DNA of 64,000 bases, taken from assembly GCA_017640605.1 (NCBI GenBank), contig JAEPQH010000007.1:1-64000 (forward strand). The letters are read 5' to 3'. Made by a program: the position numbers and the translations under genes. Shown one piece after another: positions 53,871-64,000 of this stretch. Under the pieces are notes generated by a model. It worked only from the letters and a program-made list of their open reading frames with translations, was not told the DNA's origin and ran no database searches. Numbering within the stretch: position 1 is the stretch's first letter; the number at the start of each line of letters is the position of its first letter. The DNA is from Balneolaceae bacterium. GTDB lineage: Bacteria > Bacteroidota > Rhodothermia > Balneolales > Balneolaceae.

Positions 53871-56800
53871 ATGCGAATACGTTCATGTTGGGGAATCATA
53901 GCTTTGTTGTTTGGTGCTATGTTCTCTTTTCCAACTATTGCCCAAACAACCTACGATTCTCTACAAGTTACATTTACCGTTGATCTAACGGTTTTATCAG
54001 ATTTGGATAATTTTGATCCTACCACTCAAACTCCAAAAATTGCCGGAAGTTTTACTGGTTGGCAAAACGGTGCAATCGATCTTGCAGATCAAGGTTCAAA
54101 TATATACTCAGAAACAATTCCATTCAGTTCAACTACTTCTGGAGATACCTTGCAGTATAAATTTATACTGGTTGATACCGCTGGCGTTGTTTATTGGGAG
54201 GCTAATTTTGAAACTACATCTAACAATCGTGAATACGTGATTGGTGATGCCGAAACTGACAGTGGGTCAGACGGAATTCCTGATATTGATTTAAATCATC
54301 TTTGGAATGACTGGCCACTAGACTTTTTGGATACACCAAGACCTGCATCAGCCGCTCCAAACCCTACACATCCAGAAGCAGATGTAATTTCACTATTCAG
54401 TGATGTCTATGCTGATGTTCCTGTTGATACATGGAATACTGTTTGGTCAAATGCACTCTTTTTAGAAGATGACATCGATGGGAACCCTGTAAAACGATAC
54501 AGAAAACTTGATTTCAATGGTGTTGAAACGGTGAATAATCAAATTGATATTACCGGAATGACTCACTTGAGCCTAGATGTATGGACCTCAAACGCCACTA
54601 CTTTCCGCGTGAAATTAGTTGACTTTGGAGGTGATGGAGTGTTTTCTCCTGATGCTGACGACACTGAAGGTGAAATAGCTTTTGAAAATTTACCACTTAA
54701 CGAATGGGTTACTTTAGAAATCCCAATTAATGACTTCGCAGGCCTAGAAGGCAAACAAAACATTGCTCAATTGATCTTTAGTGCAATTCCTGTATTTGAC
54801 TCAGAGGTGTTTATTGATAATGTGTTTTTTGCCAACTTACCATTGCCTTCGGTAGATGTTACATTTAATGTAAATCTGACGCCAGCTTTAATGGATAGCA
54901 TTTACATCCCTGAAACGGACGAAGTCAAGTTAGTAGGCTCGTTCAACAGCTGGGATACCGGCTTACCTATTGATATGGTTGATTTAGGTAACGATGAGTT
55001 TAGTACCACCATTAATCTTGAAAGTGAAACTTATCCCGATACTATTTTCTACAAATTTATTCTAAAGCGTGGAGGAGAAGTTGTTTGGGATGAGCCGGAA
55101 GAGCTATTGTTTGATGGTTCAAATAATCGAATGTTGGTACTCAATGGCGATGAAACGGATACTAATGAAGATGGTACGCCGGATGTTGACTTACCACTAG
55201 TGGATTTTGCTTATTCATTGCCGCTTCCATTTCCATTACCACCCTATGAGTTTGGAGATATCATCAACTACGATGGCAGTTTTGAAGGTCTTGATTTAGG
55301 ACCCGTTTCAGGTGGATATGATGGCTGGTTTTTCGAAACGGTCAATGGTCCTTCGACATACGAAATTGTAGATGATTCTCAAGATGGAGATGGGAAAGCT
55401 GCGAAAGCAACCATTAATTTCGATGGATCTGAAGATATATGGAGAGCTCAAATAGTAAATGAGCCAATTAATCCTAGTGAGGGAGATTTATATAACGTCT
55501 CATTCTGGATGAAGTCTAGTGAAGAAGGTTCAGTTGCAGAAGCTTTCCTTGGGTTGCCTGAAGAAGGTTCATTCCAAGATGTTTACACTTTCTTCGCTGA
55601 ACTAGGTACCGAATGGAATTATTACGAATTCCAGTATTTCGCATCTGATGTAGATGAAGATTTAGGATTCAGGTTTGGTGTAAAATTGAATTTTGAAGCC
55701 AACAGCAACGATATGATCTTCCTCGATAATGTACAGATCGAAAAAATCGAAGCAGTATTTACGCCGATCACATTCTCTGTAAATACTGCTATCCAGCAAG
55801 AACTTGGCAACTTCGATAAAGAAGAGCACATCATCGGATTGGTTGGAAGTTTTAATGGCTGGGATACGAATTCACCGATTATGATGGAGGCAGAGCCTGG
55901 TGATAGTGTTTATTCAGGTACTGTAGAATTGTTGAATGTTGCTGTTGATGACGAAGTTCGATATAAGTTCATTATGAAAGACGACTCAACCGGCGCATTT
56001 CAATGGGAATCTCCAGATCCGGAAAACCCAAATACGGAAGGTGAATTCAGCGATAGAGTTGTATTTATTGATGATGTAGCCGGAATGGTAATCCCAACCG
56101 ACTATTTCCACGATATTGATCGCGGAGATTTAGATGCGGATAACTACGGTATTTCTACGCTTATTGATGCAAGAAATGCAGTGTTTGGAAGTCATCTTGC
56201 AGTTCAGGGAATTGTAACTCGAATCACCAATAATTTTGTGTATGTACAAGATGAAACGGCAGCTACTACATTATTTAGTAGGCCATTTTTTGCTTCATCT
56301 AACTCTATTGGCTTTAATGAAGCTACTAAAAACGGAGATATACAGGTAGGAGACGAGCTAAAAATTGCTGGTGTTACGGCAGACTTTAACGGACTTCATG
56401 AGTTAATTAATCTTCATGGCTGGGAAGTTGTTTCAGTTGATAATCCACTTCCGATGGCTCAGTTAATGGATATTGATGAATACTCGATCAATGGAGAAGA
56501 ATATGAATCAGAAGTCGTACGTATTGAAAACGTTCGAATTTTAGATCCTGTAGATTCACTTAGGGCGGGATTTGTGTACGAAATCGTTAACGAAGAAGAA
56601 ACACAAATTGGTTGGATGTCGATTCAGGGTAGTTTTAACAGCGCTTGGGCTTTCCAGCCTGCACCACAAGGATTCTTTAACATAGAAGCAGTGGTTAAAG
56701 AATTCTTTATCCCTGGTCTTGGCGAAAATATCTACGCAGTTTCTATTCATAATGAAAGTGATATTGAAATTATCCCGGACGATTTCGATGCGGAGTTTTC

Positions 56801-58031
56801 AATCAATTCGTTGGCAACCTTACCTACATTCAATGAAACGGTAACCATCAATTTAGATCAACTTGGTGATACGCCCATTCAAGGTATGGAGCTAAGCATC
56901 AATTTTGATCCAGCACTTGTGGATGTAAGTTTAGGCGATCAAACAGGTACTGTGTTAGAGGGAACTGCATTGGTAACTAACACGCTAGAAGGTCAGCTAA
57001 ACATTGCTTTTGCTACCGACGGTACCGCTGAAAATGATATTTCAACTACGGGGGTGTTTCTTAATCTTAATGTCGAAGCACTCGCAGTTGGCGAAACTGA
57101 CATCATAATTTCCGATATTTCGATCAATGAGATGCCATCACCTGATCTGTTCTCCTTTATTAACATCGTTCCAAGACTTTGCGGCGATGTTACCGGCGAT
57201 GTTACGGTAAGTCCGGAAGATGCAACACTAGTGCTGCAGCACACTGTGAAACTTGAAGGCGTTTTCCCATTAATAGAATTAGATTCAACAGCTGCTGATG
57301 TAACCGGAAATGGTGATATTAGTGCCTTTGATGCCTCCTGGATTCTACAAAAAACGGTTGGTTTACGTGACAATCTTGGATGTATCAGTCTGCCACTTAA
57401 AGAAGATCAACAACCGGTGTCGGCAAGTTGGTTATTGGCAGAAACTTCTGAAAGTAACAGCTTGGTTCAATTAGATCTATCCAAAAACGAAATGGAGATT
57501 TATGCCATTCAAATGGAAGTTGAACTGACTGAAGGAGCGTTGTTTGCAGGAATTAAAAATCTGCCAAAGAACTGGAACCTTATCACAAATAGAAGCAGTG
57601 ATAAAACGTTAATCTCACTTTATGGCGTAACACCATTAGAGTTAGAAGTACTTGATTTGGAAATGGACATTCGCAACACACAGTCGGTGCCAAAAATCAA
57701 AGCAAATCTTGTACTTAACGAACGTGTAGTGCCGGAGCTAAATGAACTGGTAATTGGTGACGTACCTAGCGAGTTTGGGTTAAATCAAAATTATCCGAAC
57801 CCTTTCAATCCGAGCACAAATATCAGTTATACATTGCCCGAAAAATCGGATGTTGAGTTATCCATATTCAATATGCTGGGGCAAAAAGTAGCCACTTTGG
57901 TAAATCAATCTCAGGATGCCGGAACTTATTCCATTAATTGGAATGCGGGCTCAGTATCTAGTGGGGTGTATATTTACCAGTTAAGAGCGGGTGGCAATAC
58001 CTTCACTAAACGTATGATGTTGATCAAGTAA
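53871..58031 (+). CDS. secreted multidomain protein: CBM-like, cohesin-like, dockerin, T9SS domain
   Basis: 1386 residues. After a signal peptide (to about 24) come three CBM20/48-like sandwich modules marked by GSFTGW, GSFNSW and GSFNGW (near residues 60, 357 and 660). A CBM4/9-like jelly roll (about 464-625) lies between the second and third, and an OB-like domain follows (about 760-897). A cohesin-like domain comes next (about 972-1100), then a dockerin (about 1104-1173) with two calcium loops, DVTGDVTVSPED and DVTGNGDISAFD. A type IX sorting domain (from about 1302, YPNPFNPSTN) ends the protein. It should be exported to the surface and may bind glycans and other cohesin/dockerin proteins. 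No glycosidase domain is seen. Confidence 0.85.
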   Translation: MRIRSCWGIIALLFGAMFSFPTIAQTTYDSLQVTFTVDLTVLSDLDNFDPTTQTPKIAGSFTGWQNGAIDLADQGSNIYSETIPFSSTTSGDTLQYKFILVDTAGVVYWEANFETTSNNREYVIGDAETDSGSDGIPDIDLNHLWNDWPLDFLDTPRPASAAPNPTHPEADVISLFSDVYADVPVDTWNTVWSNALFLEDDIDGNPVKRYRKLDFNGVETVNNQIDITGMTHLSLDVWTSNATTFRVKLVDFGGDGVFSPDADDTEGEIAFENLPLNEWVTLEIPINDFAGLEGKQNIAQLIFSAIPVFDSEVFIDNVFFANLPLPSVDVTFNVNLTPALMDSIYIPETDEVKLVGSFNSWDTGLPIDMVDLGNDEFSTTINLESETYPDTIFYKFILKRGGEVVWDEPEELLFDGSNNRMLVLNGDETDTNEDGTPDVDLPLVDFAYSLPLPFPLPPYEFGDIINYDGSFEGLDLGPVSGGYDGWFFETVNGPSTYEIVDDSQDGDGKAAKATINFDGSEDIWRAQIVNEPINPSEGDLYNVSFWMKSSEEGSVAEAFLGLPEEGSFQDVYTFFAELGTEWNYYEFQYFASDVDEDLGFRFGVKLNFEANSNDMIFLDNVQIEKIEAVFTPITFSVNTAIQQELGNFDKEEHIIGLVGSFNGWDTNSPIMMEAEPGDSVYSGTVELLNVAVDDEVRYKFIMKDDSTGAFQWESPDPENPNTEGEFSDRVVFIDDVAGMVIPTDYFHDIDRGDLDADNYGISTLIDARNAVFGSHLAVQGIVTRITNNFVYVQDETAATTLFSRPFFASSNSIGFNEATKNGDIQVGDELKIAGVTADFNGLHELINLHGWEVVSVDNPLPMAQLMDIDEYSINGEEYESEVVRIENVRILDPVDSLRAGFVYEIVNEEETQIGWMSIQGSFNSAWAFQPAPQGFFNIEAVVKEFFIPGLGENIYAVSIHNESDIEIIPDDFDAEFSINSLATLPTFNETVTINLDQLGDTPIQGMELSINFDPALVDVSLGDQTGTVLEGTALVTNTLEGQLNIAFATDGTAENDISTTGVFLNLNVEALAVGETDIIISDISINEMPSPDLFSFINIVPRLCGDVTGDVTVSPEDATLVLQHTVKLEGVFPLIELDSTAADVTGNGDISAFDASWILQKTVGLRDNLGCISLPLKEDQQPVSASWLLAETSESNSLVQLDLSKNEMEIYAIQMEVELTEGALFAGIKNLPKNWNLITNRSSDKTLISLYGVTPLELEVLDLEMDIRNTQSVPKIKANLVLNERVVPELNELVIGDVPSEFGLNQNYPNPFNPSTNISYTLPEKSDVELSIFNMLGQKVATLVNQSQDAGTYSINWNAGSVSSGVYIYQLRAGGNTFTKRMMLIK

Positions 58032-58033
58032 TC

Positions 58034-59077
58034 ATGCAAAAGTTTCTATCCATCGTTTTTGTTATTGCAGTAGCTTTGTTCCCGATCTTAGTATCGGGAC
58101 AGGCTTCTGTGGTAATAGCAGATGAAACTACCATTATTGGTGAGCGATTACTGTATTCTGTAGAATTAATCAACGAAGGGGAGAATGTTACCGGACTGAA
58201 TTTTCAAATCAGTTTTGATACTCTTGCTCTTGATTATGTGGGAATTTCAGAAACATCTACCATGTCAGATACTGTATTGTCGATTGCTAATGGGAGCGAC
58301 GGTTTGTTGCGATTTTCATTGGCATCCACATATCCGATTCAATCATCAGGAACTATCGTTTTTGTAGAGTTTATTGGTAAGAAAACCGGTGATACCAATC
58401 TATCTTTGGTAGAGTACAGGATCAATGAAGAAGCAATAGTTGATGAAGCCACTGAGGCCAAAATCAGGGTTTTTGCTGAAGGTGGAAATCAACCGCCGTT
58501 TGCTGTATCCATACCTGATACTTTGGTTCTATTTTCGGGTGATACTCTTCAATTTACCATTGACGAGACTGTATTTGCAGATGCCGAGGATGCATTCGAT
58601 TCGTTGGATATTCAAGTGAATTTAGAACCTCAAGTAGTGTTTGGTACCTACGATCCTGAAACTGGGTTGGTAACTATTACAACTGCTGATTTTGTCGGAT
58701 TTGCCACATTAAGTATTCGAGTTGAAGATACAAATGGAGGAGTATTTGAAGAGTCGATTGTTATTGACATTCAGATGGGTGTTTCTAATGAGTTGGACGG
58801 TAATAACCAACCGATACAATTTGATCTCGCTCAGAATTATCCCAATCCATTTAACCCTACCACAAATATTAGTTTTACACTTCCAAGTTCAGGATTTACA
58901 CAGCTGGAAGTGTTCAACTTGCAAGGTCAAAAAGTAGCAACCTTATTAAAAAGCAGAGTTACAGCCGGTAATCACACCGTTACATTCGACGCTAGTGCTT
59001 TGGCAAGCGGTATATACATTTATCGCCTCACATCTTCAGCTAAGGTACAAACCAAAAAAATGCTGCTTATCAAATAA
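58034..59077 (+). CDS. secreted cohesin-domain protein with T9SS sorting domain
   Basis: 347 residues: signal peptide (to about residue 22), one cohesin-like domain at about 24-148 (with the typical LNFQISFDTLALDYVG strand and a late VFVEFIGKKTGDT strand), one cadherin/Ig-like domain at about 155-250, and a type IX sorting domain (YPNPFNPTTN, ending KKMLLIK). It starts 2 bases after the dockerin protein, so they are co-expressed and are likely binding partners on the cell surface. A terminator follows. Confidence 0.85.
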   Translation: MQKFLSIVFVIAVALFPILVSGQASVVIADETTIIGERLLYSVELINEGENVTGLNFQISFDTLALDYVGISETSTMSDTVLSIANGSDGLLRFSLASTYPIQSSGTIVFVEFIGKKTGDTNLSLVEYRINEEAIVDEATEAKIRVFAEGGNQPPFAVSIPDTLVLFSGDTLQFTIDETVFADAEDAFDSLDIQVNLEPQVVFGTYDPETGLVTITTADFVGFATLSIRVEDTNGGVFEESIVIDIQMGVSNELDGNNQPIQFDLAQNYPNPFNPTTNISFTLPSSGFTQLEVFNLQGQKVATLLKSRVTAGNHTVTFDASALASGIYIYRLTSSAKVQTKKMLLIK

Positions 59078-59449: not shown

Positions 59450-60139
59450 ATGGCTAAAGTATCTAGATTATTAATTATCGTTTTTGTCATGGTTATTAGT
59501 CGAAACAGTGTCTTAGCTCAAACGACTAATGAGTGTAACACTATTTCGAGTAAACAGATAATTCTGAATTGTATGGAAGTGCCAGTAGATTTATTTGTAA
59601 GGATTAATAAATCTGAATTTAGACCGGCAGGTATATTAATTGGTAGCCAAAGAGTGGCAAGAATTGATGCTTTCGATCCTAACTTTCCTAGTTTAAATCA
59701 GCTTGAGTATGATATAATACCATCTAGTGGTCCACTTAATGAAATAGAGTTTATTTTTAAAGTGAATATTAAATCACTTCAAATTAAAAACAAACCAATT
59801 GGGGCCAAAGTAGCAATGGGAAAAAAGCACTTGATTCCAGGTTCATTCTATATTCCGCATCATTTTTCCACTAAAATAAATGGAGATTCGCTTGAGATAG
59901 TAATTCATTTTATGGATTTAAAGACTTCATTAGAGCCCTTAAGAAAAAGTGTTGAAGATGAGATAGAGAATAAATGTACAATTAATTGTGAAAACCTTTC
60001 CCCCTTAACTGAGCAAATGCTAAAACTCTATCAAAATGATATAGAGTCTCTGAAAAAAGGGATCATAAATGAACATATAACTCAAACACTTTTTTCTTTA
60101 ATAGTTACTGACATTCATCCTAACGTACAACACCCATAA
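59450..60139 (+). CDS. unknown exported protein ending in HPNVQHP
   Basis: 229 residues. A signal peptide (hydrophobic helix, cleaved near SVLAQ, residue 24) is followed by a beta-rich domain (about 45-165) starting with VDLFVRI and ending with IPHHFS and a GDSLEIVIHF strand, then a helical tail with two cysteines, and the C-terminus HPNVQHP. I do not recognise the family. The next gene is a paralog that lacks the signal peptide but ends in exactly the same seven residues. The ribosome site AAGGAAGG is strong. Context (a sensor kinase and a response regulator follow) suggests a signal or ligand role, which is inference only. Confidence 0.75.
   Translation: MAKVSRLLIIVFVMVISRNSVLAQTTNECNTISSKQIILNCMEVPVDLFVRINKSEFRPAGILIGSQRVARIDAFDPNFPSLNQLEYDIIPSSGPLNEIEFIFKVNIKSLQIKNKPIGAKVAMGKKHLIPGSFYIPHHFSTKINGDSLEIVIHFMDLKTSLEPLRKSVEDEIENKCTINCENLSPLTEQMLKLYQNDIESLKKGIINEHITQTLFSLIVTDIHPNVQHP
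60116..60136 (+). other. conserved C-terminal heptapeptide HPNVQHP, copy 1
   Basis: The last seven codons before the stop. They read CAT CCT AAC GTA CAA CAC CCA, and differ from copy 2 at four codons, all silent. Confidence 0.85.
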
Positions 60140-60140
60140 T

Positions 60141-60560
60141 ATGAACGAAAATAATACTAGCTACGATCTCGTAAATAAACTTAGTGAAACAGATATTGAT
60201 GTATTTGTAAGACATGATAGAGGACCAGAAATAGGTGCTTGTTTGAAAAACAATAAAAGAACATCACATGTTAAGCGAAGGTCTAAACTTGCATATAAGC
60301 CTACAGACGATAATACAGTTTTAAATAAAGATTTCTCTGTAATCTATCGCTTCTCAGATTTGCCTAAGGATAGATTGAAGGGAATAAAAATTGCGCTCGC
60401 TAATGAAGCTCTTATTGCAGAATTAAATAATCCAGACATTAATCCGATTCCTCATCATGTATCATTTTATAAACGAGCGGATGGAGACTTTGAGATTGAA
60501 ATTCACTATACAGAAATTAAGCAAAATGTTCATCTACACCCGAACGTTCAACATCCATAA
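60141..60560 (+). CDS. unknown cytosolic paralog ending in HPNVQHP
   Basis: 139 residues, no signal peptide or membrane helix. It matches the domain of the preceding protein: it opens with IDVFVRHDRGPE, continues with a lysine/arginine-rich stretch, and ends with IPHHVSF and a GDFEIEIHY strand. The C-terminus HPNVQHP is identical to the neighbour's. One base separates the two genes, so they are co-translated. Loss of the signal peptide suggests that one protein acts outside and the other inside. Function unknown. Confidence 0.72.
   Translation: MNENNTSYDLVNKLSETDIDVFVRHDRGPEIGACLKNNKRTSHVKRRSKLAYKPTDDNTVLNKDFSVIYRFSDLPKDRLKGIKIALANEALIAELNNPDINPIPHHVSFYKRADGDFEIEIHYTEIKQNVHLHPNVQHP
60537..60557 (+). 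other. conserved C-terminal heptapeptide HPNVQHP, copy 2
   Basis: The last seven codons read CAC CCG AAC GTT CAA CAT CCA. Protein identity is complete although four codons differ from copy 1, which points to selection on the peptide. Confidence 0.85.
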
Positions 60561-60575: not shown

Positions 60576-63422
60576 GTGAATTTGTATAAATATTTTTTTT
60601 ATGCATTTTTAATAATTTCGTTTACCACTGATGAATCTAAGCCTCAAGCATTTGACTACAGGTTAATTGCGAATTTTACTACAGATGAGTTTAAAAATTC
60701 TGCTCAAATGTGGAGTTCATTAGAGAAAGAGACAGGTGAAATACTTTTTGGAAATAGTACGGCATTATGTTTTTTTGATGGAGTTGAATGGTCGTCGATA
60801 CATATTGGAGGCGAGGAGGTTGTTTTTTCTTTAGATAAAAATTTAGAAGGTACAGTCTTTTATGGAAGCACAAACGATTTTGGGTATTTGGTGGCTGACT
60901 CAGTTCAACAGATGACTTATGTTTCTCTCCTCGACATAGTCCCCAACCATGCAAGCGTATTTTCTCAGGTTAGACAGACTATTGCACATAAGAATCATGT
61001 ATATTTCCGAAGTCTGGAATATGTTTTTATATACGATATAATCGAAAATACGATCGATGTTATGCAAGGTGAAGATATTCTTGATAATGCATATTTAATT
61101 CAGGATGAAATCCTTTTAAATGTACATGGTTCAGGTATTTCTAAAGTGACCGAGAACGGATTTGAGCTACTAAAGGGAACAGAAGCTCTTAAAAACGATC
61201 GCATATATGGGATATTTGAGTTTAACAATGAACTCATAATTTACTCACGAGAAAAAGGTCTATTACAGTTAAAAGATAATCAGCTAGAGATAATTGAAAG
61301 TGATGTAAACCTTTTGCTTTCGGAATATGATGGGTACCGATTTTTAAAACTCAACGAAAATCGTTTTGTAATTGGCACATTGGGTGGTGGTTTACTTATT
61401 GTAGACAATAATTTTGATTTGGTTGATAGGATTACAACTAAAGATGGCTTGATTGATGATAATGTGTATGGGCTTTTTCAAGATTCTAATAACTTACTTT
61501 GGATTACAACGGATAGTGGAATTTCGGTTATAGATCTAGAACCGGACTTCTTGCAAATAGAGATTCCAGATGAAGCAGGTAACCCACTTAATTACTTCGA
61601 AATTGGAAATGAGCGCTACTTAGTGACTAATCAACTAATTTTTAGGGTTAATTCTGAGTTTGAACTAGTACCCATTTTAGATATTAACATAAATAATTTC
61701 ATTTTAGACGCCATTCCTCATCTTCAAACGTTAATTTCTGCTCAAATCAATGGATTATGGTCTGTGGGGGAAAAAATTGATCAAATAAGTGAATTAAGGT
61801 TTTCTTCTCTTACCGATTTAGATGGTAAGTTATATGGGATCAGTGAGTCGAGATTGTTTGAGATTGACAGTAATACAAGAGAGTTCGAAGAGTTTGGTCT
61901 CAACATTACTATATCAAATAAAATCAATACCTATCAAAACAAACTAGTATTCAATGCTACGAATGGTCAGGTATTTACCTATGATTTAGAAAATAATGAA
62001 GCCATCGAATTAACTAGTTCTGATAATCCTATATCAGGTATCAGAAGATTCGAAGTTATTGATGATAGTTTATATGTTCTTAGCTCTAGTAATGGTGTTT
62101 TTGTTTACAACGACTCACAATCGAATCTCATTCAGAAATCAAGATTAAGAGGCAATCCTATATCAACAAGTGATGTAAGCTTTTTTGAAAAATGTAATAG
62201 TGAATACTGGATAAGCTCCGGAAGATCCATGGTTCGAAGTGTTGAACATGATGGTTCATTCGACATTAAAGAAGAATGGTTTTCGGGAATTGGCTACGAA
62301 ACCGGTATTTATAATATCGGTTGTGGTAAAGATTACGTATGGTTTTTAGAGGAAGATAAAATGATTGGCGTCCCATACGATTACACTCATGTATCTGATA
62401 CCTTTCAAACAAATATCAGTCGCATTTTTGTAAACAGAGACTCACTTGTATATGGTGGTTTTGGAGAGCCTAATCAACAGCCAGTTTTCAAATATTCGGA
62501 TAATGAACTCCGGTTTAGGTTTGCATCAACCTATTATAAATCAAACGAACGGAATCGATACTCTTACAAACTAGAAGGCTTCGATGAAAACTGGAGCGAT
62601 TTCAGCCTCGAAACCCAAAAGGATTACACTAACATCCCTGAAGGGGAGTATGTATTCAAAGTGAAATCTAAAAATGTGTTTGGCGTAGAAGGCTCTACCG
62701 ATAGTTTCGCATTTACAGTTTTGCCACCGTGGTATCGTACGTGGTGGGCGTATTTGTTATATATGATAGGATTTAGTGGTTTGATGTACACAGCGCATCG
62801 AATTCGACTCAATCAATTGCTGAAAGTGGAGAGAATGCGCACAAAAATTGCCAGCGATTTACATGACGAGGTAAGTGCCACATTAACCGGAATCAGCTAT
62901 TTTGCGGAAGCTGTTAAAACTGATCGAGATGAAGCGCGAAAATCTCATTTCATCAATCTGATTACCGAAAGTGCAGGCGATGCCAAGGAGAAGATCACCG
63001 ATATCGTATGGTCAATTACTCCTGAAAATGACGATTGGACGTTATTCTTTTCAAAATGTCGCCGTTATGCCTCCGATATTCTAGAATCAGCCGATATGGA
63101 GTACAATTTAAATATCACTGATACTATACACAGTGAATTGTCAATGAATGTTCGGCAACACTTGTGGATGATTTTCAAAGAGATGCTAACCAATGCGGTA
63201 CGCCATTCTAAAGCAACACAATTAGACATCATTTTTGATGTAGATAACGGGGTGCTTAAGCTGATTGTGCAAGATAATGGCCAGGGGTTTGATATCGACG
63301 CCGACCAAATGGGTAATGGAGTTACGAATATTAAAAAAAGAGCGAATGCAATAGGGGCAAAAATCTATTTTAATTCCGAACCCGAAATGGGTACGCGTTG
63401 GCGATTAGAATACAATATTTAA
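60576..63422 (+). CDS. two-component sensor kinase with beta-propeller and Y_Y_Y domain
   Basis: 948 residues from a GTG that begins an imperfect signal sequence. A large periplasmic beta-propeller region (about 25-640) contains repeats of the 'two-component regulator propeller' type (DGLIDDNVYGLFQDSNNLLW). Next come a Y_Y_Y domain (about 642-715, YKLEGFDENWSDF), a membrane helix (about 722-742), HisKA_3 with His763 (DLHDEVSATL) and an ATPase domain (NAVRHS, DNGQGFD). In Bacteroidota such propeller kinases often sense glycans. Here the neighbours are the HPNVQHP proteins (15 bases upstream) rather than a glycan-use locus, so the ligand may differ. The response regulator downstream is the likely partner. 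Confidence 0.9.
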   Translation: MNLYKYFFYAFLIISFTTDESKPQAFDYRLIANFTTDEFKNSAQMWSSLEKETGEILFGNSTALCFFDGVEWSSIHIGGEEVVFSLDKNLEGTVFYGSTNDFGYLVADSVQQMTYVSLLDIVPNHASVFSQVRQTIAHKNHVYFRSLEYVFIYDIIENTIDVMQGEDILDNAYLIQDEILLNVHGSGISKVTENGFELLKGTEALKNDRIYGIFEFNNELIIYSREKGLLQLKDNQLEIIESDVNLLLSEYDGYRFLKLNENRFVIGTLGGGLLIVDNNFDLVDRITTKDGLIDDNVYGLFQDSNNLLWITTDSGISVIDLEPDFLQIEIPDEAGNPLNYFEIGNERYLVTNQLIFRVNSEFELVPILDININNFILDAIPHLQTLISAQINGLWSVGEKIDQISELRFSSLTDLDGKLYGISESRLFEIDSNTREFEEFGLNITISNKINTYQNKLVFNATNGQVFTYDLENNEAIELTSSDNPISGIRRFEVIDDSLYVLSSSNGVFVYNDSQSNLIQKSRLRGNPISTSDVSFFEKCNSEYWISSGRSMVRSVEHDGSFDIKEEWFSGIGYETGIYNIGCGKDYVWFLEEDKMIGVPYDYTHVSDTFQTNISRIFVNRDSLVYGGFGEPNQQPVFKYSDNELRFRFASTYYKSNERNRYSYKLEGFDENWSDFSLETQKDYTNIPEGEYVFKVKSKNVFGVEGSTDSFAFTVLPPWYRTWWAYLLYMIGFSGLMYTAHRIRLNQLLKVERMRTKIASDLHDEVSATLTGISYFAEAVKTDRDEARKSHFINLITESAGDAKEKITDIVWSITPENDDWTLFFSKCRRYASDILESADMEYNLNITDTIHSELSMNVRQHLWMIFKEMLTNAVRHSKATQLDIIFDVDNGVLKLIVQDNGQGFDIDADQMGNGVTNIKKRANAIGAKIYFNSEPEMGTRWRLEYNI

Positions 63423-63625
63423 CCACTACATTACAGACCACATATTTGTGTGGTGAAAAACTGCGCTCATACAATTATCCTGCTGCATGTCCTTCTAATT
63501 GAAGAATTAAACACAATCTTGCTCAGGTTTTTGATAGAACCTGAGTTCATTTAAATTACACGCACATGCAAACTGTAGTAATGCCCAATGCAACTCATAC
63601 CAATCAGCTTAAATGGGGGAGCACT

Positions 63626-64000
63626 TTGATTAAAGTTATTATTGTAGAGGACAACAAATATATGCGAGAGGGTTGGCAAACCTTTATCGATTATGATAAA
63701 AACCTTTGTGTGTTAAAGAGTTTTGGGTCGGTAGAGGCCGCATTAGAATCGGAAGAATTGAAAAAAACGGATGTAATCATCATGGATATCGGGTTACCCG
63801 GTATGAATGGAATTGAAGGCGTTCGGGCCATTAAAGCTACCCATCCTAAAGTGCAAATCATTATGGCCACAGTGCACGACGATAACGAGCATATTTTCGA
63901 GGCCATTAAAGCCGGTGCCGTAGGCTATCTCATGAAAAAAGTAACACCAGATGAATTGGTTGCTGCTGTTAAGGATGCCCATGAAGGAGGTTCGCCGATT
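63626..64000 (+). CDS. NarL-type response regulator (partial, cut by window end)
   Basis: The receiver domain is readable: the acidic pair (VEDN), the phospho-acceptor Asp in VIIMDIGLPGMNG, the conserved Thr (MATVHDD) and the Lys (GYLMKK). The DNA-binding half lies beyond the window. I place the start at the TTG at 63626, which gives MIKVIIVEDN and follows GGGGGAG; ATGs in the same frame at 63566 and 63581 are alternatives that add 15-20 residues. The order HisKA_3 kinase then NarL-type regulator supports pairing with the upstream kinase. Confidence 0.88.
   Translation, partial: MIKVIIVEDNKYMREGWQTFIDYDKNLCVLKSFGSVEAALESEELKKTDVIIMDIGLPGMNGIEGVRAIKATHPKVQIIMATVHDDNEHIFEAIKAGAVGYLMKKVTPDELVAAVKDAHEGGSPI

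Follow-up and report, generated by a model that had tools for sequence, protein, structure and literature searches.

A polymorphic locus of Balneolales joins small proteins with a conserved C-terminal tail to a hypervariable propeller sensor kinase

The window analysed in this study is a stretch of 64,000 nucleotides from a Balneolaceae contig. Towards its right end, two adjacent genes for small proteins are followed on the same strand by those of a sensor histidine kinase and a LuxR-type response regulator (Table 1). The original prediction, made from the letters of this DNA, drew attention to the small genes, stating that one product bears a signal peptide and the other does not, and that both end in the heptapeptide HPNVQHP. 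Reading of the open reading frames bore this out, with signal peptides judged here and below by a hydrophobicity heuristic only; in both genes the heptapeptide is followed by TAA. It was also correct that four of the seven tail codons differ silently (CAT CCT AAC GTA CAA CAC CCA versus CAC CCG AAC GTT CAA CAT CCA). These two are the only HPN-x-QHP-stop ends in the window genome, and there was none in 128 other genomes of the order. Upstream lie adjacent genes for T9SS-sorted proteins, one with a starch-binding CBM_20, a cohesin and a dockerin (53871-58031) and one with a cohesin (58034-59077), which represent a cohesin-dockerin pair in this lineage.

Table 1. Genes and parts of genes at the tail-protein locus, in positions of the window
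Feature	Position	Strand	Basis
Exported tail protein, 229 aa, 4 Cys, signal peptide MAKVSRLLIIVFVMVISRNSVLAQ	59450..60139	+	ORF and translation
HPNVQHP tail codons, exported protein	60116..60136	+	
Leaderless tail protein, 139 aa, all-beta body	60141..60560	+	ORF, AF2
HPNVQHP tail codons, leaderless protein	60537..60557	+	
Sensor histidine kinase, 948 aa: propeller region, Y_Y_Y, HisKA_3, HATPase_c	60576..63422	+	Pfam; PDB relatives 4a2l/4a2m, 3v9f
Hypervariable propeller region, kinase residues about 25-600	60648..62375	+	Region identities
Y_Y_Y domain, kinase residues 654-715, start of conserved module	62535..62720	+	Pfam
HisKA_3 and HATPase_c, kinase residues 755-944, conserved module	62838..63407	+	Pfam
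LuxR-type response regulator	63566..64000, continuing to about 64258 past the window	+	ORF; Response_reg and GerE domains

The two proteins had been proposed to share a domain in spite of strong divergence. A direct BLASTP comparison gave a match confined to the tail, but a single homologue from genome G027 matched each of them independently (E 3e-7 for the exported and 3e-6 for the leaderless protein); seen via this intermediate sequence, the bodies are true, if remote, homologues. Each has an orthologue in G032, a genome of the same genus, 49% identical for the exported and 56% for the leaderless protein. No named family had been recognised for them, and searches of both against Pfam, NCBIfam, PHROGs and PADLOC yielded nothing above cut-off. 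The PADLOC models of anti-phage defence matched neither the tail proteins nor the kinase; only the proteases encoded in some related cassettes, described below, matched protease models. A Foldseek search of PDB with the model of the window protein gave no match at E < 0.001, a scan of genome contigs with P0002 revealed no relatives, and no account of this locus was found among open-access papers. In the AF2 model of the leaderless protein (mean pLDDT 69.6) the body is all-beta and the tail disordered, with residues 128-139 below 50; membership of a known fold, named beforehand as an argument against a tag, is thus not what the model shows.

The kinase combines propeller repeats, Y_Y_Y, HisKA and HATPase_c in one polypeptide, as do propeller (Reg_prop/Y_Y_Y) sensor histidine kinases; its single Reg_prop match lies just below the Pfam cut-off, and the propeller is predicted to be periplasmic. 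Identity to G032 amounts to 48% in the propeller region and 82% in the kinase domain, and to all other relatives to 15-30% and 32-75%, respectively; the response regulator is 91% identical in G032. Viral contigs scanned with the kinase contained no relatives.

The small proteins of the window belong to a family (A4, the IPHH family) which a profile search, run on 395 genomes from the whole phylum, detected only in the window's own taxonomic family, apart from two weak hits elsewhere. Every member found adjoins the same type of kinase, as a check proposed beforehand had asked. When ten members were aligned, the heptapeptide at the end of the window protein ranked first among 133 seven-residue blocks, and mean pairwise identity was 0.59 in the tail versus 0.26 in the body, so that the tail is, as expected, the better conserved part; among the invariant residues are the P, H and P of the tail, two His in the PHH region and a single His in the IH strand. 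The notion of a conserved extreme C-terminus needs some correction, since in relatives 0-8 residues follow the HP (HPG, HPETDPGGG, HPDGFG). Variable C-termini, named beforehand as an argument against a tag, were also met in part: the exact heptapeptide is private to the window genome, but family members in general have the motif P-x-[VI]-x-HP. In G032 both genes are present in the same order, with the ends THIHPAIHHP and LTDIHPDIHHP, and more distant members end in TDVDPLVKHPG, VDVDPNVGHPGGGG, TDVDPNIEHPETDPGGG, EHVDPQVKHPDGFG, NHIDPTVFHPNEPGSG and IHKDPTIIHPDDPGGNG.

Comparison of the two congeneric pairs revealed a concerted change, VQ in both tails of the window versus IH in both tails of G032, while the bodies follow orthology (48-56% between orthologues). 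Together with the silent codon differences in the window, this makes the match between paralogous tails appear to be kept by selection. The original prediction had gone further and dismissed recent copying. In the window the silent differences speak against it; in G032 copying is possible, because HPAIHHP and HPDIHHP are codon-identical at every shared residue, unlike the window pair.

The HPNVQHP pair is one allele of a larger polymorphic locus. Close relatives of the kinase occur in 52 of 129 genomes of the order, and a clear small co-directional gene lies upstream in about 47 of the 50 kinase loci with intact flanks. Two of the remaining loci have candidates of 38-46 aa only and one has none; such very short reading frames are uncertain, because they were picked by position and direction. 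Upstream of kinases outside Balneolales there was no tail gene in the loci inspected. The bodies of the small proteins fall into A4, A5 (Fodinibius and others), A6 (the order's second family), A7 (the GHC type) and singletons. Profile comparison related A5 to A6 (probability 94), gave a hint only for A4 and A7 (probability 14) and detected no relation of A4 to A5 or A6, so that it does not unite all the bodies; an N-terminal pattern that they have in common, x-I-x-N-x(5)-I-x-V, points tentatively to a single superfamily.

Across these bodies a few types of C-terminal tail recur, namely HP, GH[IV]CxP..C, and DIxIxxP or EP, the motif and the classes having been chosen after inspection of the data and the classes assigned by eye. 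A loose pattern (hydrophobic-x-hydrophobic/P-x(1,4)-P within the last 22 residues) is present in 40 of 51 tails and 84 of 548 control reading frames, counts that are descriptive only, as the pattern was chosen after seeing the tails. A search for orphan GHC tails elsewhere in the order returned chance-like matches besides the known loci. In four genomes, two tail proteins differ in body but agree at the end: HPNVQHP twice in the window, HPAIHHP/HPDIHHP in G032, GHICDPSKPGC[ND]S twice in G005 and DVDIRHP/DVNVKHP in G075; the similarity of the bodies is at or below the detection limit. In G075 the two reading frames upstream of the kinase (L027 1093-1388) comprise 47-49 aa, little beyond the tails, and end in DVDIRHPDQ and DVNVKHPIEEG. 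Many leaderless members (L060-L074) have an acidic low-complexity linker before the tail, as if holding it off the body. A bin labelled Osedax symbiont Rs2 carries a Balneola-type locus (L107 4543-4926); the bin is probably mixed and the contig from Balneolaceae.

Most of the small proteins lack a signal peptide, and the GH[IV]CxP..C tail is confined to exported or anchored ones. Exported members contain 3-6 Cys and leaderless ones 0-3, a difference which suggests that both locations are probably real.

Alignment of whole loci, with one genome per species compared, showed at the level of sequence that the small gene or genes and the part of the kinase gene that encodes the propeller constitute one AT-rich hypervariable cassette in Balneolales. 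Outside it, the remainder of the kinase, the LuxR-type regulator and the genes on either side are conserved. The cassette holds one small gene, sometimes two, and sometimes a serine protease gene as well. Between G027 and G023 the flanking genes are 90-99% identical, the regulator 100%, Y_Y_Y 99% and the kinase domain 98.5%, versus 26% for the propeller and no detectable similarity between the small proteins. At the DNA level, similarity of 86.7% ends about 60 nt before the likely start of the small gene and resumes, at 96.7%, at kinase residue ~624. The same gap was seen in G039/G040, G005/G007, G005/G002, G030/G023 and G030/G027, and in six genomes the GC content of the cassettes is 31-36% versus 37-45% in the flanks. 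Sister propeller kinases without a tail gene, from the same genomes and genus, served as a control and lacked the contrast: their propeller and kinase identities are, for example, 76 and 85% (G007/G005) or 65 and 71% (G007/G002), unlike the 27 and 89% of the tail-linked kinases of G007/G005.

Serine protease genes were found in the cassettes of three loci only. The gap begins just before a trypsin-like gene in G039, a subtilase gene occupies the same place in G040, and in G003 a subtilase gene directly precedes the small gene; given these positions, the protease appears to be part of the cassette in those three. The trypsin-like and subtilisin-like genes, inside or at the edge of the cassettes (L171 4278-5150; L170 574-1947, minus strand; L181 741-1970, minus strand), have no evident leader.

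A tandem duplication in G005 (L182 3360-5522) offers a view of the exchange within one genome. Between the copies, the DNA is 95% alike in the 5' flank, as far as the start codon; the likeness is lost throughout the body and returns, at 82%, with the tail codons, from where it runs on into the beginning of the kinase gene. Between the two tail-protein genes, the bodies of which have been replaced, lie remnants of a kinase start and of a PDZ-protein gene. As read from the DNA, this is a mosaic in which the tail goes with the kinase and the body does not.

An association of tail and propeller was also found across loci. Tail similarity correlated with propeller identity given kinase identity (partial rank r 0.50; 45 loci; 0 of 2000 permutations) and also exceeded within-genus permutations, although tests of this kind leave shared ancestry partly in. 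With the kinase and the body both taken into account, the partial rank r between tail and propeller was 0.49, versus 0.15 between body and propeller given kinase and tail. That the tail signal is the stronger favours recognition, whereas linkage explains part of the covariation, because the cassette moves as a block. Positions specific to tail class, compared in four genera, fall in kinase residues 30-604, mostly 30-320, and none in 605-948. One motif, HI[GE][EK]xGRG at residues 76-83, is invariant in five kinases of three genera linked to GHC tails and absent from the other kinases compared. G027 and G023 combine different tails with near-identical kinase modules, which makes it unlikely, by this comparison, that the specific reader of the tail is the conserved kinase domain. 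Reading of the tail by the propeller would be the most economical account, and among the functions initially listed for the tail, docking is favoured by the way in which its similarity follows the propeller.

On balance, we lean towards the view that the two proteins supply a polymorphic receptor locus with its ligand or accessory half, with the tail as recognition element, and that this locus would work like agr or comQXPA while being unrelated to them. In such a mechanism, the cognate propeller would recognise the tail by insertion or strand addition, and the small protein would thereby switch its own kinase and regulator, leaving the body free to diverge. Each lineage might, less certainly, gain in this way a private signalling channel, by analogy with AgrD/AgrC and ComX/ComP. 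Two points speak against this reading from the outset: the propeller is predicted to be periplasmic while most small proteins are leaderless, and linkage within the cassette could alone make tail and propeller co-vary. Candidate ways for leaderless proteins to meet a periplasmic receptor are release by lysis, another export route, or an accessory role.

The last of these leads to a different and, in our opinion, possible though less likely explanation, in which the small protein is an accessory sensor subunit acting within one cell: it would bind a variable environmental ligand and dock on its own kinase via the tail, without any cell-to-cell signal. The exported forms (lipoprotein, TM-anchored or secreted) reside in the compartment of the propeller and contain the 3-6 Cys given above, and the anchored ones could hardly be diffusible signals. 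Nevertheless, exported and leaderless paralogues of one genome carry the same tail, and a body and a receptor that are hypervariable together are typical of signal-receptor pairs more than of ligand-binding subunits.

A separate problem is whether the tail has to be recognised by another protein at all. It might serve folding alone, as the final beta strand of a small beta-sandwich that diverges fast, and be linked to the propeller in an exchanged cassette, an explanation that we find improbable. The main structural argument for it, and against recognition by the propeller, comes from the A6 group, where AF2 models residues 128-132 of the tail as a strand of its own protein (pLDDT about 79) after a disordered linker; the exchange of small proteins and propellers as one block fits it as well. 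Yet the tail is disordered in models of the window family, the G075 products are little more than tail, tails match between paralogues with different bodies, and body similarity does not account for the association between tail and propeller.

It seems more improbable still that the tail is a tag for export, processing or quality control, such as a C-terminal secretion signal, instead of a receptor motif. Leaderless proteins would indeed need an exit route if they act on a periplasmic receptor, and the protease genes of the three cassettes might be seen in this light, but proteins with an ordinary signal peptide also bear the tail, and a tag for general machinery should be the same in near-identical genomes and independent of the type of propeller. 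A signal of the T1SS type was set aside because of these same signal-peptide-bearing proteins. The RiPP core suggested earlier was likewise set aside: the neighbourhoods, judged by reading their ORFs, displayed no modifying, maturing or exporting enzymes of that kind. Nor did direct evidence emerge for the cleaved signal peptide suggested alongside it, serine proteases being encoded in the cassettes of three loci only.

Returning to recognition of the tail by the propeller, we may extend it to a more specific scenario, which we offer as a speculation and consider doubtful. Pherotype-like private signalling would operate in diderm Balneolota, the protein, or a peptide cut from it, being read via its C-terminal tail by the hypervariable periplasmic propeller kinase. 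Leaderless forms would be freed when kin lyse and would tell the surviving cells that others of their type are present or have died, and the exported paralogue with the same tail would set the baseline.

The agr and com systems are textbook loci of private bacterial communication in Gram-positives. The hypervariable region of staphylococcal agr lies in agrB, agrD and agrC (PMC10482373). As there, the hypervariable segment described here comprises the small (signal) gene and the receptor part of the kinase, with a conserved kinase domain, constant surroundings and a response regulator gene downstream; the order small gene(s)-kinase-LuxR-type regulator, a likeness of order only, was found in the window and its relatives. 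Unlike in agr, there is no thiolactone peptide, a predicted periplasmic beta-propeller takes the place of the membrane domain as receptor region, the candidate ligands are folded proteins and the bacteria are diderm. The loci read contain no AgrB-type processing membrane protein, only the leaderless-looking trypsin or subtilase genes of the three cassettes. In Bacillus comQXPA, conservation decreases from ComA through ComP to ComX, and the N-terminal domain of ComP is variable versus a conserved cytoplasmic domain (PMC4008528). The order of signal, kinase and LuxR-type regulator on one strand is common to both systems; however, the small proteins of Balneolales share a conserved tail, the sequences are unrelated, and no ComQ isoprenyl transferase gene was seen upstream in 17 extended neighbourhoods read by ORF.

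Exchange of variable cassettes beside conserved sequence is also described for polymorphic toxin systems (PMC3482391); here, by contrast, the short C-terminal tail is constant and the body variable, and domain and family searches found no toxin or immunity domain. With respect to the receptor, the closest parallel is Bacteroides BT4663 (PDB 4a2l/4a2m), in which a propeller and Y_Y_Y likewise form a periplasmic sensor on a transmembrane histidine kinase; this hybrid two-component system binds disaccharides on the entry faces of its propeller (PMC5121618). The locus described in this work differs in that the LuxR-type regulator is a separate protein, the propeller is hypervariable and a small protein is almost always encoded next to the kinase. 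If our interpretation is true, an order-wide polymorphic locus in Gram-negatives would open peptide or protein kin signalling there to direct test, and it would provide a concrete peptide-ligand hypothesis for propeller kinases, whose best-known characterised member, BT4663, binds sugars.
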